Source of the DNA: Thermus brockianus | GTDB lineage: Bacteria; Deinococcota; Deinococci; Deinococcales; Thermaceae | Assembly: GCF_001880325.1 (NCBI RefSeq) | Contig: NZ_CP016312.1 | Location: 744,001-808,000 of the forward strand | Length of the DNA stretch: 64,000 bases | Reading direction: 5' to 3' | In this document: piece by piece, positions 2,299 to 8,528 of the stretch | Position numbering within the stretch: position 1 is the first letter of the stretch | How the letters are laid out: each line of letters begins with the position of its first letter | Made by a program: the position numbers and the translations under genes | Notes under the pieces: model-generated | What the model was told of the DNA's origin: nothing | Databases searched by the model: none | What the model saw: the letters and a program-made list of their open reading frames with translations, nothing else

Positions 2299-2324
2299 CT
2301 TTCTCATGAGAAAGTGAGTATCCT
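2299..2324 (+). promoter_or_regulatory. 16-bp palindrome and -10 element of the response-regulator gene
   Basis: CTTTCTCATGAGAAAG at 2299-2314 is a perfect 16-base palindrome in a GC-rich context. It is followed by TATCCT at 2319-2324, seven bases before the ATG at 2332. If TATCCT is the -10 box the mRNA is leaderless and the palindrome fills the -35/-10 spacer, a typical operator position. Binding by the adjacent response regulator (autoregulation) is inference. Confidence 0.5.
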
Positions 2325-2331
2325 GGAGGGT

Positions 2332-3006
2332 ATGGAAGCCCCTCTAATCCTCATCGTGGAGGACGAGAAGGACATCGCCCGCTTCATAGAGTTAGAGCTC
2401 CAAGCGGAGGGCTACCGCACCGAGGTGGCCCACGACGGCATCACCGGCCTTTCCCGATTCCGCGAGGTGAACCCCAACCTGGTGATCCTGGACCTGATGC
2501 TTCCCGTGATGGACGGGATTGAGGTGGCCAAGCGCATCCGCAAGACCTCCAACGTGCCCATCCTTATCCTCACCGCCAAGGACCGGGTGGAGGACAAGGT
2601 GGAGGGCCTGGACGCCGGGGCGGACGACTACCTGGTGAAGCCCTTTTCCATAGAAGAGCTCCTCGCCCGGGTGCGGGCCCACCTGCGCCGGGTAAGCCCG
2701 GCCATCACCGGGGAAATCCGGGTGGCGGACCTCATCATCAACGTGGAGGGGCGGGAGGTTTTCCGGAGCGGCCGCCGCATTGAGCTTTCCAACAAGGAGT
2801 TTGAGCTTCTGGAGCTTCTCGCCAAGAACCCCGGCAAGGTCTTTAGCCGCTACGAGATAGAGGAGAAGGTCTGGCCGGGCTACCAAGGGGGAAGCAACGT
2901 GGTGGACGTGTACATCGGCTACCTGCGCAAGAAGCTGGAGGCCGGGGGGGAGCGCCGCCTCATCCACACGGTGCGGGGCGTGGGGTACGTCCTTAGGGAG
3001 GACTAA
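2332..3006 (+). CDS. OmpR/PhoB-family response regulator
   Basis: 224 residues. The N-terminal receiver domain (1-120) has the acidic pair in IVEDEKD, phosphoacceptor Asp54 in [13 protein letters not shown], the switch Thr in LTAKDR and Lys in [11 protein letters not shown]-terminal winged helix (about 130-224) carries the family end [13 protein letters not shown]...VRGVGYVL. I start at ATG 2332: an upstream GTG at 2314 lies inside the palindrome and would add six unconserved residues. The gene is ten bases upstream of its histidine kinase and forms a standard pair with it. It is a DNA-binding transcription regulator acting in the cytoplasm; the signal and targets are not evident. Confidence 0.93.
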
Positions 3007-3016
3007 CCCCCCTTCC

Positions 3017-4423
3017 ATGACCCTGCGCACCCGCATCACCCTCCTCACGGCGGGCCTCCTTTTCGTCACCCTGGTGGTCCTCGGGGTAGCCCTGGAAGGG
3101 GTCTTGCGGAGCTTCCTCTACCGAAGCCTCCGGGCAGAGCTTTTGGAGGCCAGCAACCAGGTGGTGCGCCTCCTTAACCTCGGGGGGCAGCCCCTCCTGG
3201 AGGCGGGCCTTCCCGCCGGCCTTTACGCCGAACTCCAGCTCCTCCCCGAGGAGGACCCCGCCCTTCTGGCCCGGGAAGGGGGGATTAGCCTCCAGAAAAG
3301 CCCCGCATTGGGGAGCGGGCGCCTCCTCCTCAAGGAGGGGGACTACCGGGCCCTCCTGGCCCGGGGGGAGGTCTGGGCCCGGGTGGAGCTACCCCGGGAA
3401 GGAACGCCTCTTCCCCTCCTGGTCTACGCCCGCCGGGTGGAGGTGAACGTGGCCGGCACGGTGTGGAAGGGCCTCCTCCTGGTGGGACGGCCCACGGAAG
3501 GGATAGAGGCCACCCTCACCCAGTTCACCCGCATCTACGCCGGCACCGCCCTTTTGGTGCTCCTCCTAAGCGTCCTGCTGGCGCGGAACCTGGTGGCCCG
3601 GGCCCTTTCCCCCTTGGAGTGGGTAGCCCGGAAGGCCGAGGCCATGCCCGAGCGCCCCGAGCCCCTGCCCGAGCCCGAAGGGGAGGACGAGGTGGCGGCC
3701 CTGGTCAAGGCCCTAAACGGGATGCTCTCCCGCATGCAAAAGGCCTTTGAGGCCCAGACCCGCTTCCTCCAAGACGCCTCCCACGAGCTCAGGACCCCCA
3801 TCACCGCCATCCTGGGCCACGTGGGCTACCTCCTCCGCCGCACCCCCCTGAACGAGGTCCAGCGGGAAAGCCTGGAAACCGTCCGGCGGGAGGCCGAGCG
3901 CATGGGGAAGCTGGTTTCCGACCTATTGGAGCTTTCCCAAAGCGGAAGCTGGCGCATAGAGCCCATCCCCGTGCGGGTTCTGGACCTCTTGGAGGAGGTG
4001 CGGGAGGAGTTCAAAAGGAGCTTTGAGGGGGAGATCCTGGTGGAAGCCCCCCCGGAGGTGTACGTCCGGGGGGACCCCGACCGGCTCCACCAGGTCCTGG
4101 CCAACCTGGTGTCCAACAGCCTCAAGGCCGGGGCCCGGCAGGTTTGGCTCAGGGCCTTTGACCTTAAGGACAAGGTGGTGGTGCGGGTGGAGGACGACGG
4201 GGAGGGCATCCCCGAGGAGCACCTCCCCCACCTCTTTGAGCGCTTCTACCGGGTGGATAAGGCCCGGGACCGGGAACGGGGAGGCTCTGGGCTTGGGCTT
4301 GCCATCGTGAAGGCCATCCTCGAGGCCCACGGGGGGGAGGTCTGGGTGGAAAGCGAGGTGGGCAAGGGGACGGCCTTCAGCTTTTCCCTCCCCGCAAGCG
4401 CGCCACCGCCTCCTCCACGCTGA
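3017..4423 (+). CDS. sensor histidine kinase, HAMP-HisKA-HATPase
   Basis: 468 residues. Membrane helix 1 (about 9-30), an extracytoplasmic sensor region of ~140 residues, membrane helix 2 (about 174-190), a HAMP linker, a HisKA dimerisation domain with His256 in ASHELRTPITAILGH, and a HATPase domain with N box LANLVSNSLKAG, G1 DDGEGIP and G2 GSGLGLAIVK. The sensor region has no recognised ligand domain. It autophosphorylates and passes phosphate to Asp54 of the preceding regulator. Its last 47 bases overlap, tail to tail, the end of the DUF2089 gene on the other strand, so transcription of the two units may interfere. Confidence 0.93.
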   Translation: MTLRTRITLLTAGLLFVTLVVLGVALEGVLRSFLYRSLRAELLEASNQVVRLLNLGGQPLLEAGLPAGLYAELQLLPEEDPALLAREGGISLQKSPALGSGRLLLKEGDYRALLARGEVWARVELPREGTPLPLLVYARRVEVNVAGTVWKGLLLVGRPTEGIEATLTQFTRIYAGTALLVLLLSVLLARNLVARALSPLEWVARKAEAMPERPEPLPEPEGEDEVAALVKALNGMLSRMQKAFEAQTRFLQDASHELRTPITAILGHVGYLLRRTPLNEVQRESLETVRREAERMGKLVSDLLELSQSGSWRIEPIPVRVLDLLEEVREEFKRSFEGEILVEAPPEVYVRGDPDRLHQVLANLVSNSLKAGARQVWLRAFDLKDKVVVRVEDDGEGIPEEHLPHLFERFYRVDKARDRERGGSGLGLAIVKAILEAHGGEVWVESEVGKGTAFSFSLPASAPPPPPR

Positions 4424-4760
4424 TCTCCCCCTTGCGCAAAGCCTCCAGGACCTCCAGGCGCGCCGCCTCCGCACCCTCCGGCTCCGCCTCGTCCTCGTAA
4501 CCCAACGCCCGCAGGAGGGCGTCCAACCGGGCCCGCACCGTGGGGTAGGAAACCCCTAGGAGGCGCTCCACCTCCTTGAGGTTCCCCCGGGCCTTCACGA
4601 AAAGCCGCAGGAAGTCCAGGTGTTCCTTGGGAAGGAGGGCGAACTCGTTTAGGGCGAAGCGCCCCGAAACCTCCGTGGCGCAGGCAGGGCAGAAAAGGAC
4701 CTTCGCCGCCAACGGGCTTTCGCAAACCGGGCAACGCACGGGAAGCGGTCGCATCACCAT
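4377..4760 (-). CDS. DUF2089-family transcription regulator (zinc ribbon + HTH)
   Basis: 127 residues. The N-terminus is a four-Cys zinc ribbon (CPVCESPL...CPACATEV). The middle (about 45-90) is a sigma-region-4-like helix-turn-helix with NLKEVERLLGVSYPTVRARL. The last 25 residues, EVLEALRKGEISVEEAVARL, repeat the helical-hairpin module found in two proteins upstream in the same operon. ATG 4760 is preceded by AGGTGGG and overlaps the stop of the previous gene (ATGGTGA), so translation is coupled. It is the last gene of five. DUF2089 proteins sit beside YvlB/SHOCT-type membrane-stress genes in Firmicutes; a regulator of this operon is the likely role, but that is inference. Confidence 0.8.
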   Translation of the reverse strand: MVMRPLPVRCPVCESPLAAKVLFCPACATEVSGRFALNEFALLPKEHLDFLRLFVKARGNLKEVERLLGVSYPTVRARLDALLRALGYEDEAEPEGAEAARLEVLEALRKGEISVEEAVARLRGGKS

Positions 4761-5023
4761 AGTCCCACCTTTACCTTCACCCCCTCCGCCTCCACCTCCA
4801 CGAAGACCGCAGGCGGAAGCGCCCGCAGGGCAAAGACCGCCCCCAGGGGAAGGGAGATGCGGGGGCGCTGGCCCCGGAGGGCCCGCCCCTTTTCCATCCA
4901 AAGGACCCCCAGAAGGAGCCCCTCGAGGGCGCAGAGGGGCAGGACGAGCCCCAGGGGCACCTTCCCCCACCACACCCCCAGGTAAAGGAAACGGGGGCGA
5001 AGGGCGGAAAGGGGAACCTTCAA
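4754..5023 (-). CDS. small membrane protein of the DUF2089 operon
   Basis: 89 residues, no family recognised. I start at a TTG codon that overlaps the stop of the upstream gene as TTGA; the same frame is open further upstream but would duplicate that gene. A hydrophobic stretch around residues 18-40 (PLGLVLPLCALEGLLLGVLW) suggests one membrane helix or a hairpin. The C-terminal half is basic and then amphipathic, ending EVEAEGVKVKVGLW. Its end overlaps the DUF2089 start by 7 bases. Position between a soluble SHOCT-like protein and a DNA-binding protein suggests a membrane anchor or sensor, as an inference from order only. Confidence 0.6.
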   Translation of the reverse strand: MKVPLSALRPRFLYLGVWWGKVPLGLVLPLCALEGLLLGVLWMEKGRALRGQRPRISLPLGAVFALRALPPAVFVEVEAEGVKVKVGLW

Positions 5024-5388
5024 ACCACCTCCACCAGGATGCGCACGGGCTTGCCCTCCTCCTCCGCCTCCACCTCCACCAGCTTTCCCTCCGGCACCCC
5101 TTGGCCCACCACCGCCAGGAGTTCCTTCAGGCTCACCCCCTGGCGCCCCAGGGTGAGCTGGGTCTCCTCGGGCAGGAGCTTCTCCAAAAGCTCCGCCAAA
5201 GCCAGGGGAAGGTTGACGTGCACCTTCACCGGCTTGCCGTGGTCGTGGCCGTCCACCCGCACCCGCAAAAGCCGGGCCGGGGAGGAGGCCTTGGGGCCAT
5301 TCCCCAGGGCTTCTAGAAGGGCCAGGGCCTCCTCCACCCCAATCTCCCCCGCCTTCACCATCTCCAGAACCCTCCGCTTCTCCTCCAT
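5020..5388 (-). CDS. SHOCT-like / YvlB N-terminal-type protein
   Basis: 122 residues. It begins MEEKRRVLEMVKAGEIGVEE, the helical-hairpin module of YvlB/LiaX-type envelope-stress proteins (SHOCT-like). The following 80 residues are mostly beta/alpha with VRVDGHDHGKPVKVHVNLPL and a C-terminal VEVEAEEEGKPVRILVEV. ATG 5388 has GGAGG five bases upstream and overlaps the previous stop (TGATG), so an N-terminal extension of 30 residues is rejected. It is the third gene of the five-gene unit. A role in oligomerisation with the other module-bearing proteins is inferred from the shared hairpin, not known. Confidence 0.7.
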   Translation of the reverse strand: MEEKRRVLEMVKAGEIGVEEALALLEALGNGPKASSPARLLRVRVDGHDHGKPVKVHVNLPLALAELLEKLLPEETQLTLGRQGVSLKELLAVVGQGVPEGKLVEVEAEEEGKPVRILVEVV

Positions 5389-5702
5389 CACGCCTCCTTC
5401 GTCCCAGGTTCCCGATGGCCAAGCCGCACCCGGGCCTCCAGGTGGGCCCGGCCGTCCCCAAGCCCATGCCCTTCCCAAGCCCCGTGGCCCGCTTGGGCTT
5501 GGGCCGCTGCCACGCTGGAGCCAGGGAGGAAAGGGAGCCTAGCGTGGCCTAGTCCCACCCAAAGCCGGTGGGCACCCTCCCGCACGGGAAGGCTCGCCTC
5601 CAGGCTGCCCACCTGGAGCTCCAGGCCCCATCCCCCCCAGGCTTCCTCGGGGGTGGTGGCGCCTGCCCGTAGCCTCTCCAGAATGCGCCGCTTAGCCTCC
5701 AC
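5388..5702 (-). CDS. SHOCT-like hairpin protein with beta-rich C-terminus
   Basis: 104 residues from GTG 5702, which follows GGGAGGTGG and overlaps the end of the previous gene by 11 bases. The N-terminus VEAKRRILERLRAGATTPEE is a second copy of the hairpin module in the next gene. The rest (LELQVGSLEASLPVREGAH..., later HLEARVRLGHREPG) alternates short hydrophobic stretches as in the beta-helical DUF4097 tail of YvlB proteins. Its stop overlaps the next start. It looks like a diverged paralogue of the neighbouring 122-residue protein. I do not know a function; context suggests envelope or membrane stress. Confidence 0.6.
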   Translation of the reverse strand: MEAKRRILERLRAGATTPEEAWGGWGLELQVGSLEASLPVREGAHRLWVGLGHARLPFLPGSSVAAAQAQAGHGAWEGHGLGDGRAHLEARVRLGHREPGTKEA

Positions 5703-5880
5703 GGGCCACCTCCCACCGCACCTCGGGCGCCAAGGCCTGGGCCAGGCGCCAAAGGGCCTGGGCAAGCCGCACCCGCCAGGGACGGCGCAGGGGAAGGAGA
5801 AGCCTCTCCCGCTCCGCCTCCCAAAGGCGCTCCCGGTGGCGTTCCAGGAGAGCCTCCCGGTCCCAGTGCCCTAGCCCCAT
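5692..5880 (-). CDS. small Arg/Glu-rich helical protein, first gene of the DUF2089 operon
   Basis: 62 residues; ATG 5880 has AGGAGG spaced five bases away, which decides against the GTG six bases upstream. The whole chain is a predicted amphipathic helix rich in Arg, Glu and Leu (RHRERLWEAERERLLLPL, then a Trp/Ala-rich helix). No family recognised. Promoter elements directly upstream and overlaps downstream make it the first cistron of a five-gene unit. It could be a membrane-surface or protein-protein adaptor. Short length lowers confidence, but the ribosome site and the coupling to the next gene support expression. Confidence 0.55.
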   Translation of the reverse strand: MGLGHWDREALLERHRERLWEAERERLLLPLRRPWRVRLAQALWRLAQALAPEVRWEVARGG

Positions 5881-5898
5881 GCTCACCTCCTAGCCAAA

Positions 5899-5928
5899 AG
5901 GATAAACCGGGGATTTATAGATTGTCAA
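5899..5928 (-). promoter_or_regulatory. promoter of the five-gene DUF2089 operon
   Basis: On the minus strand a perfect TTGACA (5928-5923) lies 18 bases before TATCCT (5904-5899), followed by the AGGAGG ribosome site and ATG 5880. The 5900-5945 interval is markedly AT-rich for this genome. It separates this operon from the end of the heme operon on the same strand. Confidence 0.6.
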
Positions 5929-5944
5929 GTGTTGCTTGCTATAT

Positions 5945-6697
5945 TTAAGGGGGGAGCCTCGAGGGGTGCCGGGACCCCAGGAAGGGCGCCCCCAGGAAGG
6001 CGAAGAGGAGAAGGGCGTAGGCGAGGAGGAGAAGCCCCGCCCGCACCCGGCCCCGAAGCCGGTCTTCCAGGAGAAAGTAAAGGGTAAAAAGGAGCCAGCC
6101 CAAAAAGGCGGAAACCTCCTTGGGATCTAAGCTCAAAGGGCTCCCGAAGTAGCTAAAAGCCCAGGCCATGCCGCTTCCCAAGCCCAAGGTGGCCGCCCCG
6201 TAGCCCACCCTCAGGTAGCCCCGCTCAAGCCGCCTTAGGCTCCAAAGGGGAGGCGCCCCCAGGGCTCGCTCCGGGTGCGCCCGCAGGCGCAGGTCCTGCA
6301 GGGCGCACATCACCCCCGCCCCCACCCCCACGGCCAAGGCCAGGTAGGCCACCAAAAAGGCCCCGGCGTGGAAGAGGGTGAGGAAAAGGGGAAGCTCCCC
6401 CCGGGGGTGGGGCAGGGCCTTTAGGGCGAAAAGGCCGAGGACCAAGGCGAGGGCGAGGAGATAGCGGCGCAAAGAGGAAAGCTTAGGGCGAAGGGCGAGG
6501 GCCTCGCCCCGCAGGGCCAAAAGGCCCCCGAGGACCAAGGCGGGTTGGGCCGGCCCCGAAAAAACCCCCTTAGATAGCGCATCGGCCAAGGCGGCCCCTA
6601 GGTAAAGCCAAGCCCCAAGCCCAAGCCCCCGGGGCCAAAACCACCCCAAGGCCAAAAGGGCCAGGCCCAAAAAGGCCAGGACGCTCGCCAGGCTCAT
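5945..6697 (-). CDS. hemX: HemX/CcsA-like cytochrome c assembly family membrane protein
   Basis: 250 residues with about eight membrane helices. The diagnostic segment SYFGSPLSLDPKEVSAFLGW corresponds to the WGSYW..DPKE motif of the CcsA/CcmC/HemX family, which handle heme in the membrane. It overlaps the end of hemA by four bases (ATGA), the classic hemA-hemX arrangement, where HemX affects the level of glutamyl-tRNA reductase. It is the last gene of the heme operon and is followed by the promoter of the next unit. Role as heme-related regulator rather than true c-type assembly factor is inferred from the neighbour. Confidence 0.82.
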   Translation of the reverse strand: MSLASVLAFLGLALLALGWFWPRGLGLGAWLYLGAALADALSKGVFSGPAQPALVLGGLLALRGEALALRPKLSSLRRYLLALALVLGLFALKALPHPRGELPLFLTLFHAGAFLVAYLALAVGVGAGVMCALQDLRLRAHPERALGAPPLWSLRRLERGYLRVGYGAATLGLGSGMAWAFSYFGSPLSLDPKEVSAFLGWLLFTLYFLLEDRLRGRVRAGLLLLAYALLLFAFLGAPFLGSRHPSRLPP

Positions 6698-7809
6698 GGC
6701 CGGGCCTGGGCCTTGAGGGCCAGGATCAAGGGGTGGGCCCGGCGGCCCGCCTCCTTGTGCCAGGTGAGGGGGTCGGCGTGGGGAAACTCCTTGGCCACTT
6801 CCCTAAGAAGCCTCTCCTCCAGGGCCCGGATGGCCTCCCGCACCCGGTGGCCGGCGTACCACTCCAGGTAGTCGCCCAGGGCCTTCTCTATCAGGGCCTC
6901 CACCTTGGGCACCTCGCCCAGGCGGGCCTTGAGGTTTTTCTCCACCACCCTTTGCAGGTCGTCCAGGTTGTAGAGGTAGGCGTGGGGAAGCCGCCCCACC
7001 CTGGGGTCAATGTTCCTCGGGAGGGCGATGTCTATGAGGAAAAGGGGCTTGGCCCGCCGGGGCAGGTCCTCGGGGCGCACCAGGTAGTGGGGGGCGGCCG
7101 CCGAGGCCACCACCAGGTCCGCCTCCGCCAGGACCTGGGGCAGGGCTTCCAGGGCAAAGGCCTCCCCGCCCAAGCGCTCCGCCAAGGCCTTGGCCCTTTC
7201 CGCCGTGCGGTTCACCACCAAAACCCGCCCCACCCCGTGGGCGCGGAGGTGGGTGAGGAAAAGCTCCGCCATCTCCCCCGCCCCCAGGACCGCCACGGTG
7301 AGCCCCGTGAGGTCGCCATAGACGGCCTGGGCCAGGTCCAAGGCGGCGTAGGCCACGCTCACCGCCCCAGCCCCGATGGCGGTTTCGCTCCGGGCCCGCT
7401 TGCCCAGGGCGATGGCGGACTGGAAGGCTTTTTCCAAAAGGCTTTCCGTGGCCTTGTGCGCCCTGGCCAGGAAAAGGGCTTCCCGTACCTGGCCGAGGAT
7501 CTGCGCCTCCCCCACCACCAAGGAGTCCAGCCCCGCAGCCACGCGGAAGAGGTGGCGGAGGACCTCCATCCCCTCCTTCACGTACAGGTACCGCGGTTCC
7601 ACACCCCTTTCCCGAAGGAGGGCCTTGGCCTCCTCGGGCGCACCCACCCCGTAGATCTCCGTGCGGTTGCAGGTGGAAAGCACCACCGCCTTGCCCAGGC
7701 GCCGGAGGGCGGCGGGAAGGGCCACGGCCGGGTCCAAGGCCGCCCTTTCCCGCACCTCCACGGGAGCGGTCTTGTGGGAAAGGCCCACCAGGTAGAGGGG
7801 CAGGGCCAT
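6694..7809 (-). CDS. hemA: glutamyl-tRNA reductase
   Basis: 371 residues. It reduces glutamyl-tRNA(Glu) to glutamate-1-semialdehyde with NADPH, the first committed step of tetrapyrrole synthesis. The catalytic Cys47 is in LSTCNRTEIYG; GLDSLVVGEAQILGQVR and the Rossmann motif VAVLGAGEMAELFLTHL follow, then the C-terminal helical dimerisation domain. I start at ATG 7809 (MALPLYLVGLSHKTAP); the frame is open 24 codons further upstream without conserved sequence. A TATACT element lies 11 bases upstream, so hemA may have its own promoter besides read-through from hemD 45 bases away. Confidence 0.95.
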   Translation of the reverse strand: MALPLYLVGLSHKTAPVEVRERAALDPAVALPAALRRLGKAVVLSTCNRTEIYGVGAPEEAKALLRERGVEPRYLYVKEGMEVLRHLFRVAAGLDSLVVGEAQILGQVREALFLARAHKATESLLEKAFQSAIALGKRARSETAIGAGAVSVAYAALDLAQAVYGDLTGLTVAVLGAGEMAELFLTHLRAHGVGRVLVVNRTAERAKALAERLGGEAFALEALPQVLAEADLVVASAAAPHYLVRPEDLPRRAKPLFLIDIALPRNIDPRVGRLPHAYLYNLDDLQRVVEKNLKARLGEVPKVEALIEKALGDYLEWYAGHRVREAIRALEERLLREVAKEFPHADPLTWHKEAGRRAHPLILALKAQARP

Positions 7810-7820
7810 AGCCTCCCGCC

Positions 7821-7826
7821 AGTATA
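7821..7826 (-). promoter_or_regulatory. possible internal -10 element before hemA
   Basis: TATACT on the minus strand (7826-7821), in the 44-base gap between hemD and hemA, with a GGGAGG ribosome site between it and ATG 7809. No convincing -35 box is visible, so this is a candidate internal promoter only. Confidence 0.35.
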
Positions 7827-7853
7827 CCCAAGCCGGGTAGGGACACCCGTCCC

Positions 7854-8528
7854 TCAAAGGGCCCGAAGGATAGCCTCCCATAGCCCCTCGAGCCCCGGGC
7901 GCGGGGCCTCGTACACGGCAAAGCCAAGCCCTCTCGCCGCCTCCGCCGTGGCGGGACCGATGCAGGCCGCCTTGGGCCGCCTCCCCGTCCAGCGGGCGTA
8001 GGCCCGCACCCCGCTTGGGCTAAAGAAGGCCGCCACCTCCGCCTCCTCCAGCAGGCGGCGCTCCGCTGGGGAGAGCGCCCTTTCCCGGGTGGCGTAGACC
8101 TCGAGGCGCACCACCTCCACCCCCCGCCCCCGAAGCCCCCGCTCCAGCTCCCCTCCCGCCAGGTCCCCCGCCACGAAGAGGACCCGCTTCGCCTCCGGAA
8201 AGGCCTCGGCCAGGTCCTTGGCCGTGGCCCTTTCCGGGAGGAAGGCGGGGGGAAGCCCCCCTTGCCGCAGGACCTCCCCCGTCCCCTCCCCCACCGCCGC
8301 CACCCTTAGGGGGGGCCTTCCCGCCCGCTCCCAGGCGCCAAGGAGGCGCCGCGCCCCTTCCTTGGAGGTGACGGCCACCCAGTCAAAGCCCTCCCCCAGG
8401 GCCTCAGGCAGGCGGGCCAGGCCGGGGAGGTCCACCTGCTCCAGGAGGGCCACTTCCGCCGCCCTGATCCCCCAGGCGGCCAGCCTTTCCAAAAGCGCCC
8501 TATCCTTCCCCCTCGTGAGGAGCACCAC
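7854..8528 (-). CDS. hemD: uroporphyrinogen-III synthase
   Basis: 224 residues, the usual length. Two alpha/beta lobes are evident: N-terminal VLLTRGKDRALLERLAAWGI, the conserved DWVAVTSKEGARRLLGAW, then RVAAVGEGTGEVLR, VLFVAGDLAGGELERGLRGRG, EVYATRE and a C-terminal VAAFFSPSGVRAYARW. It closes hydroxymethylbilane with ring-D inversion to uroporphyrinogen III. The sequence is poorly conserved across the family, so the call rests on this motif order and on hemA directly downstream. Start GTG 8528 overlaps the previous gene by 29 bases; a shorter start cannot be excluded. Confidence 0.9.
   Translation of the reverse strand: MVLLTRGKDRALLERLAAWGIRAAEVALLEQVDLPGLARLPEALGEGFDWVAVTSKEGARRLLGAWERAGRPPLRVAAVGEGTGEVLRQGGLPPAFLPERATAKDLAEAFPEAKRVLFVAGDLAGGELERGLRGRGVEVVRLEVYATRERALSPAERRLLEEAEVAAFFSPSGVRAYARWTGRRPKAACIGPATAEAARGLGFAVYEAPRPGLEGLWEAILRAL

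Follow-up and report, generated by a model that had tools for sequence, protein, structure and literature searches.

Do the five small, overlapping genes found within a 64,000-nucleotide stretch of the Thermus brockianus genome (contig NZ_CP016312.1, positions 744,001 to 808,000; referred to here as the window) form an intact membrane-stress sensor, or has one of them decayed while the others were retained? The original prediction for this DNA favoured the former, with three hairpin-bearing proteins assembling together with a membrane protein and a regulator. Our analysis points instead to the Thermus form of a DUF2089/SHOCT-like/Toastrack envelope-stress operon that has lost its Toastrack protein and in which the DUF2089 regulator (g5) would control its own promoter, g3 and g5 would be linked through their hairpins and g4 would act as a tether; we assign this reading a probability of roughly 0.6. 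A DUF2089-autoregulated envelope-stress operon running without Toastrack is the most likely identity of the locus, its function being inferred from sequence.

Gene content of the operon

All five open reading frames (ORFs) were confirmed on the minus strand, with overlaps of 11 nucleotides between g1 and g2, one between g2 and g3 (TGATG), four between g3 and g4 (TTGA) and seven between g4 and g5. The first called ORF (g1, 5692-5880) encodes a helical protein of 62 residues for which the Pfam search gave no match. It is followed by g2 (5388-5702; GTG start; 104 residues), which profile alignment and selection identify as the stump of a gene for a SHOCT-like and Toastrack protein. The 122-residue product of g3 (5020-5388) has a SHOCT-like hairpin at residues 2-32 and a conserved C-terminal domain without a Pfam match, and g4 (4754-5023; TTG start) encodes 89 residues with one hydrophobic segment and no hairpin. 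The last ORF (g5, 4377-4760; 127 residues) exceeds the cut-offs for a zinc ribbon (PF22747, 43.7 bits) and a helix-turn-helix (HTH; PF09862, 82.6 bits), which together with a C-terminal SHOCT-like hairpin give it the predicted make-up of a DUF2089 regulator. A search of solved structures with the DUF2089 protein found no convincing match.

The hairpin motif noticed originally corresponds to an existing Pfam domain, PF22746 (SHOCT-like_DUF2089-C; cut-off 27 bits). Its proposed presence in three proteins held in part: the match is clear in g3 (37.5 bits, E 1.5e-9) and sub-threshold in the DUF2089 protein, but the domain was not detected in the 104-residue protein, where helix 1 and the beginning of helix 2 are all that is left. 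The locus in this genome therefore comprises two hairpin genes (g3 and g5) and one hairpin stump (g2).

The second gene as a Toastrack remnant

Seven of the 25 Thermus genomes compared, a set that includes the genome of the window, hold a g2 of 217-232 residues at this position with the hairpin at its start (37-40 bits), and versions of 216-290 residues are carried by metagenome-assembled genomes (MAGs) of Thermaceae and Trueperaceae. All seven aligned full-length g2 proteins, one of them from Thermus caliditerrae, match PF22746, and three match the DUF4097 Toastrack family (best E 1.3e-17). The structure model of the T. caliditerrae protein (predicted local distance difference test, pLDDT, 86.4) shows a helical hairpin and, after it, a large number of strands. 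Its best match in the PDB is 4QRK (E 2e-6, probability 1.0, TM-score just 0.43-0.45), one of two Toastrack structures named by Ravi et al. 2024 (mSystems, PMC11237479); a sequence search also ranks 4QRK first, weakly (E 0.02). Full-length g2 is a SHOCT-like protein with a Toastrack domain (DUF4097, YvlB-type).

Within the full-length profile (225 positions) the window protein covers residues 2-21 and 135-220, which leaves it some 120 codons short, with the end of the hairpin among the lost part. No Pfam family was matched by it in the Pfam search, PF22746 included, and no DUF4097 match was found in its 2.39-Mb genome. The Toastrack domain that characterizes the Toastrack/DUF2089 context is thus lacking from the window operon, whereas seven sister genomes possess it.

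Selection was estimated as the pairwise NG86 ratio of nonsynonymous to synonymous substitution rates (dN/dS) between the window and a close relative, G007. The ratio was 0.14 for g1, 0.21 for g3, 0.26 for g4 and 0.05 for g5, in contrast to 0.99 for g2 (bootstrap 0.53-2.22); intact g2 pairs in other genomes gave 0.25-0.44. A ratio near one next to neighbours at 0.05-0.26 indicates that the stump is drifting while the neighbours are kept. At the level of sequence, selection shows g1, g3, g4 and g5 to remain functional and g2 to be a decaying stump under neutral drift.

Loss of Toastrack and erosion of the operon across Thermus

Conservation of the five genes in Thermus was found to apply to the 62-, 122-, 89- and 127-residue products, which occur in most genomes, but not to the 104-residue form, which occurs in one other genome only. 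Among the 25 genomes g2 is full-length in seven, truncated to 104-105 residues in two and vestigial or absent in 16. (A scan of the named genomes with a single peptide pattern had given 14 loci.) When mapped onto a tree built from four flanking proteins, these states require at least six changes, four of which are forced by well-supported branches, or ten losses if loss is irreversible.

Erosion reaches beyond g2 in several genomes. The operon has shrunk to the promoter and DUF2089 in G010, and only DUF2089 fragments adjoining ccsB are left in G002, G014 and G024. T. parvatiensis lacks both g1 and g2; its g3 has a broken frame close to the 5' end, and its g4 is split into two frames. A g3-g4 fusion was observed in G005, and the fusion point matches a 22-nucleotide direct repeat that the window retains (minus strand, 5058-5079 in g3 and 4780-4801 in g4). 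The g3 genes of G012 and G023 carry, at their start, the upstream context of g2 and the g2 start MED(K/R), joined to a g3 body. These starts look like what recombination between the hairpin-coding ends of g2 and g3 would leave, and recombination between these similar ends is likely to have been one route of Toastrack loss. As a separate observation, G006 and G008 (L046 and L049) carry a gene for a 394-residue major facilitator superfamily (MFS) transporter inside the operon, between g4 and DUF2089.

Could the stump have been retained to bridge translation between g1 and g3, and not as a protein? Most of the reduced genomes still have an open frame that terminates -5 to +8 nucleotides from the g3 start, so translational coupling into g3 may have been kept, and the 11- and 1-nucleotide overlaps in the window would suit such a role. 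However, the arrangement is not kept in G005 and G022, where the open stretch is 15 nucleotides only, a G+C content of 68% makes open frames common, and some of the deletions share ancestry. We consider this explanation unlikely.

The operon itself appears to be old. The locus is flanked by hemA-ccsB on one side and by a convergent kinase-regulator pair on the other in 25 of 25 Thermus genomes and in Thermaceae of family group f4; in the window the CcsB-like cytochrome c assembly gene, which together with hemA forms the conserved upstream flank, lies at 5945-6697 on the minus strand. The same gene order, with g1, a SHOCT-like and Toastrack g2, g3, g4 and DUF2089, is found in a Trueperaceae MAG and a Thermaceae MAG (L101 and L103), and g1-like first ORFs were found in Thermaceae and Trueperaceae. 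The core in more distant families of the order consists of a Toastrack-type g2, a g3-like gene and DUF2089. As judged from this gene order, the DUF2089/SHOCT-like/Toastrack operon is ancestral in the order.

Promoter and candidate operator

The proposed TTGACA/TATCCT promoter was borne out: TTGACA-N18-TATCCT (5899-5928, minus strand) is the sole promoter-like match in 3000-8000, with shuffles giving 0.0, and the -10 box of the sister loci reads TATAAT, TACAAT or TACACT. Aligning the sequences upstream of 21 Thermus loci and 12 others on the -35 box brought out two symmetric 19-bp dyads with their centres 22 bp apart, one over the -35 box (centred at position -3 of the alignment) and one over the -10 box. 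The upstream dyad of the window, TAGCAA-N7-TTGACA (5923-5941, minus strand; consensus TGTMAA-N7-TTGACA), has the -35 box as its right arm, and the downstream dyad, TATAAA-N7-TTTATC (5901-5919, minus strand; consensus TRTAAA-N7-TTTAYA), lies over the spacer and the -10 box. The bases between the arms vary while the left arms are conserved, and because these lie upstream of the -35 box and in the spacer, their conservation is not explained by the promoter alone.

With at most one mismatch, TRTAAA-N7-TTTAYA has one site in the genome of the window, at the operon promoter; taken alone this uniqueness is weak, since by a rough estimate about 0.4 sites per genome of this size are expected by chance. 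Stronger evidence comes from the combined pattern TTGACA-N3-TRTAAA-N7-TTTAYA: allowing up to two mismatches, 19 Thermus genomes each have a single match, which in every case lies at the operon, and the reversed-pattern control gave no match in the Thermus genomes. The combined pattern is missing in the three Thermus genomes with DUF2089 fragments only, and three Thermus genomes with DUF2089 carry variants beyond two mismatches.

In some relatives, similar sites were found at other genes. A second site lies directly upstream of genes for an ABC-2 ATPase and permease in G035 (L150, 2811-2838) and G031 (L149, 2678-2705), and in G029 (L152, 868-2898) an operator-like site precedes an MFS gene followed by a gene whose LiaF-C match is sub-threshold (23.1 bits against a cut-off of 29). 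This suggests that the regulator of the operon promoter may also control exporters and envelope proteins. Operator-like matches also occur in some larger genomes of family group f5, in one of which (G028) the reversed control matches too. Other single-dyad matches look like chance, several of them lying inside genes.

An alternative is that the dyads serve the convergent two-component system, which would then control the operon with DUF2089 as a downstream partner only. As originally described, the operon, with its one membrane protein, converges with such a pair: a sensor histidine kinase (3017-4423, plus strand) and its partner, an OmpR-family response regulator (2314-3006, plus strand). The pair shares the synteny described above and is also found nearby in two more distant families, and synteny is what suggests a link between it and the operon. 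However, G002, G014 and G024 retain both the kinase and the regulator gene although operon and operator are lost there, and an obligate tie is therefore disfavoured. The genome of the window holds no other operator, its sole good site being at the five-gene promoter, and the symmetric dyads are unlike the 11-bp direct repeats that OmpR-family regulators usually use. Control by the two-component system is thus improbable.

Side observations on this flank are that the kinase and g5 genes overlap tail to tail by 47 nucleotides (4377-4423), and that the kinase match runs about ten residues longer at its C-terminus in the window and G007 than in other Thermus genomes. A Haemolysin-III/PAQR (TrhA-like) membrane gene (1684-2298) adjoins the pair in most Thermus genomes.

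Hairpin proteins and a proposed working of the operon

The Toastrack-free operon that we prefer may work as follows. A dimer of the DUF2089 protein g5 would bind both dyads, which cover the -35 and -10 boxes, and repress its own operon; the conserved dyads at its own promoter hint indirectly at sequence-specific DNA binding. The C-terminal SHOCT-like hairpin of g5 would pair with the hairpin of g3, which g4, helped by g1, would bring to the membrane. Membrane perturbation would then shift the sharing of g5 between the g3/g4 complex and the DNA and so switch the operon, and in some relatives also the exporters with the same operator. Toastrack would originally have been a second hairpin-bearing scaffold that became dispensable in most Thermus lineages.

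Related statements are found in the literature. SHOCT-like domains were proposed as membrane anchors, and the DUF2089/Toastrack contexts as lia-operon-like, by Ravi et al. 2024 (PMC11237479), and two-hybrid tests showed the Toastrack protein YvlB to interact with PspA and with LiaH (PMC9239133). A resemblance of the DUF2089 HTH to the effector domains of response regulators, 1JE8 for example, has been noted (PMC2686095). Repression by g5, as opposed to activation, is a guess that we prefer because the dyads cover both promoter boxes. We take 1JE8 to be NarL, which binds inverted repeats.

The hairpin model is matched by all 11 DUF2089 proteins of the alignment (best 1.6e-9), and the hydrophobic segment of g4 spans residues 24-42 (KD19 2.09). 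Other assignments were tried and rejected, namely the C-terminal domain of g3 as HPr (14.9 bits against a cut-off of 23, with weak PDB matches), g3 as LiaX (NF038025; 19.7 bits over residues 1-29 only, against a cut-off of 350) and g4 as LapA-type (E 0.01, below the cut-off). In G036 (L070, 4489-5032) a shorter second g3-like gene without a hairpin directly follows g3 and looks like a duplication.

Several observations weigh against the scheme. The upstream dyad of the window is degenerate, and the right arms of the dyads coincide with the -35 and -10 boxes, so part of their conservation is that of the promoter. The joint loss of operator and DUF2089 is perhaps mere deletion of neighbours. Among the proteins, the g5 hairpin of the window stays below the PF22746 cut-off (17.5 bits, E 0.003), the g3 model is of low confidence (pLDDT 63; C-terminal domain beta2-alpha3-beta2), and the family search with g4 gave no family over the cut-off and no known membrane family.

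A wider proposal is more tentative, and we lean somewhat against it: the locus would be a minimal Toastrack-free circuit built from a small hairpin protein, a membrane peptide and an autoregulator; its private operator of tandem dyads would, in relatives, control ABC-2 or MFS exporters and a LiaF-like protein as well; and the hairpins would serve both as an interaction code and as recombination sites in the repeated shedding of Toastrack.

The intact five-protein sensor of the original prediction was not supported. This genome does retain two hairpin genes and a gene for a membrane protein, which are under selection, and relatives with full-length g2 do hold three hairpin proteins, but the window g2 is a decayed Toastrack remnant with its codon deficit, absence of Pfam matches and dN/dS near one, and Toastrack is reduced or absent in 18 of the 25 Thermus genomes; we regard this explanation as very unlikely. 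Decay of the whole operon without present function, to which the reductions in G010, G002, G014 and G024, the broken genes of T. parvatiensis and the fusion in G005 might point, is likewise most improbable against the dN/dS of 0.05-0.26 of the other four genes and a unique, conserved operator.

Relation to known systems and significance

That the genes form a DUF2089/SHOCT-like operon of the envelope-stress type agrees with the original prediction, as their relatives belong to Lia/phage shock protein (PSP)-like contexts in the account of Ravi et al. 2024 (PMC11237479), where a four-gene Toastrack/DUF2089 context is regarded as a probable counterpart, in function, of the PSP/Lia system. Like that context, the locus encodes a DUF2089 protein of zinc ribbon-HTH-SHOCT-like make-up, found there in a conserved neighbourhood with Toastrack proteins; unlike it, the window has no Toastrack and g4 has no recognised LiaI-LiaF-TM or PspC match. 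The kind of system is already known from that source and is present here in reduced form. The passages of Ravi et al. 2024 used here do not contain g1, the operator or the erosion, and the main text names neither Thermus nor Deinococcota. The new elements are the order-wide synteny, the recurrent loss of Toastrack (partly by joining of the g2 and g3 starts), the conserved small first ORF and the tandem dyads.

Full-length g2 of the sister genomes resembles YvlB of Bacillus subtilis and LiaX of Enterococcus in having an N-terminal SHOCT-like hairpin followed by Toastrack, and the start of g3 weakly matches the LiaX model. Unlike the YvlB and LiaX systems, the window lacks Toastrack and the operon lacks PspC (LiaY) and LiaFSR genes. 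In the bawcin leaderless bacteriocin clusters (PMC10707071) a DUF2089 protein likewise adjoins transporter genes; however, no bacteriocin gene was seen here, and the operator is shared with exporters in some relatives only. No experimental study of a DUF2089 protein was found in the literature searched.

DUF2089 and Toastrack proteins are widespread and have been proposed to be PSP/Lia-like. The Thermus species form a natural gradation, with complete operons at one end, stump-bearing ones in between and loss at the other, that shows which parts are dispensable, in a genus that is genetically tractable, heat-stable and harmless. With the candidate operator, a site is at hand that can be tested directly, and exporters and a LiaF-like protein emerge as possible targets of the DUF2089 regulator. 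If our reading is true, a DUF2089/SHOCT-like envelope-stress circuit would be able to work without the Toastrack platform.

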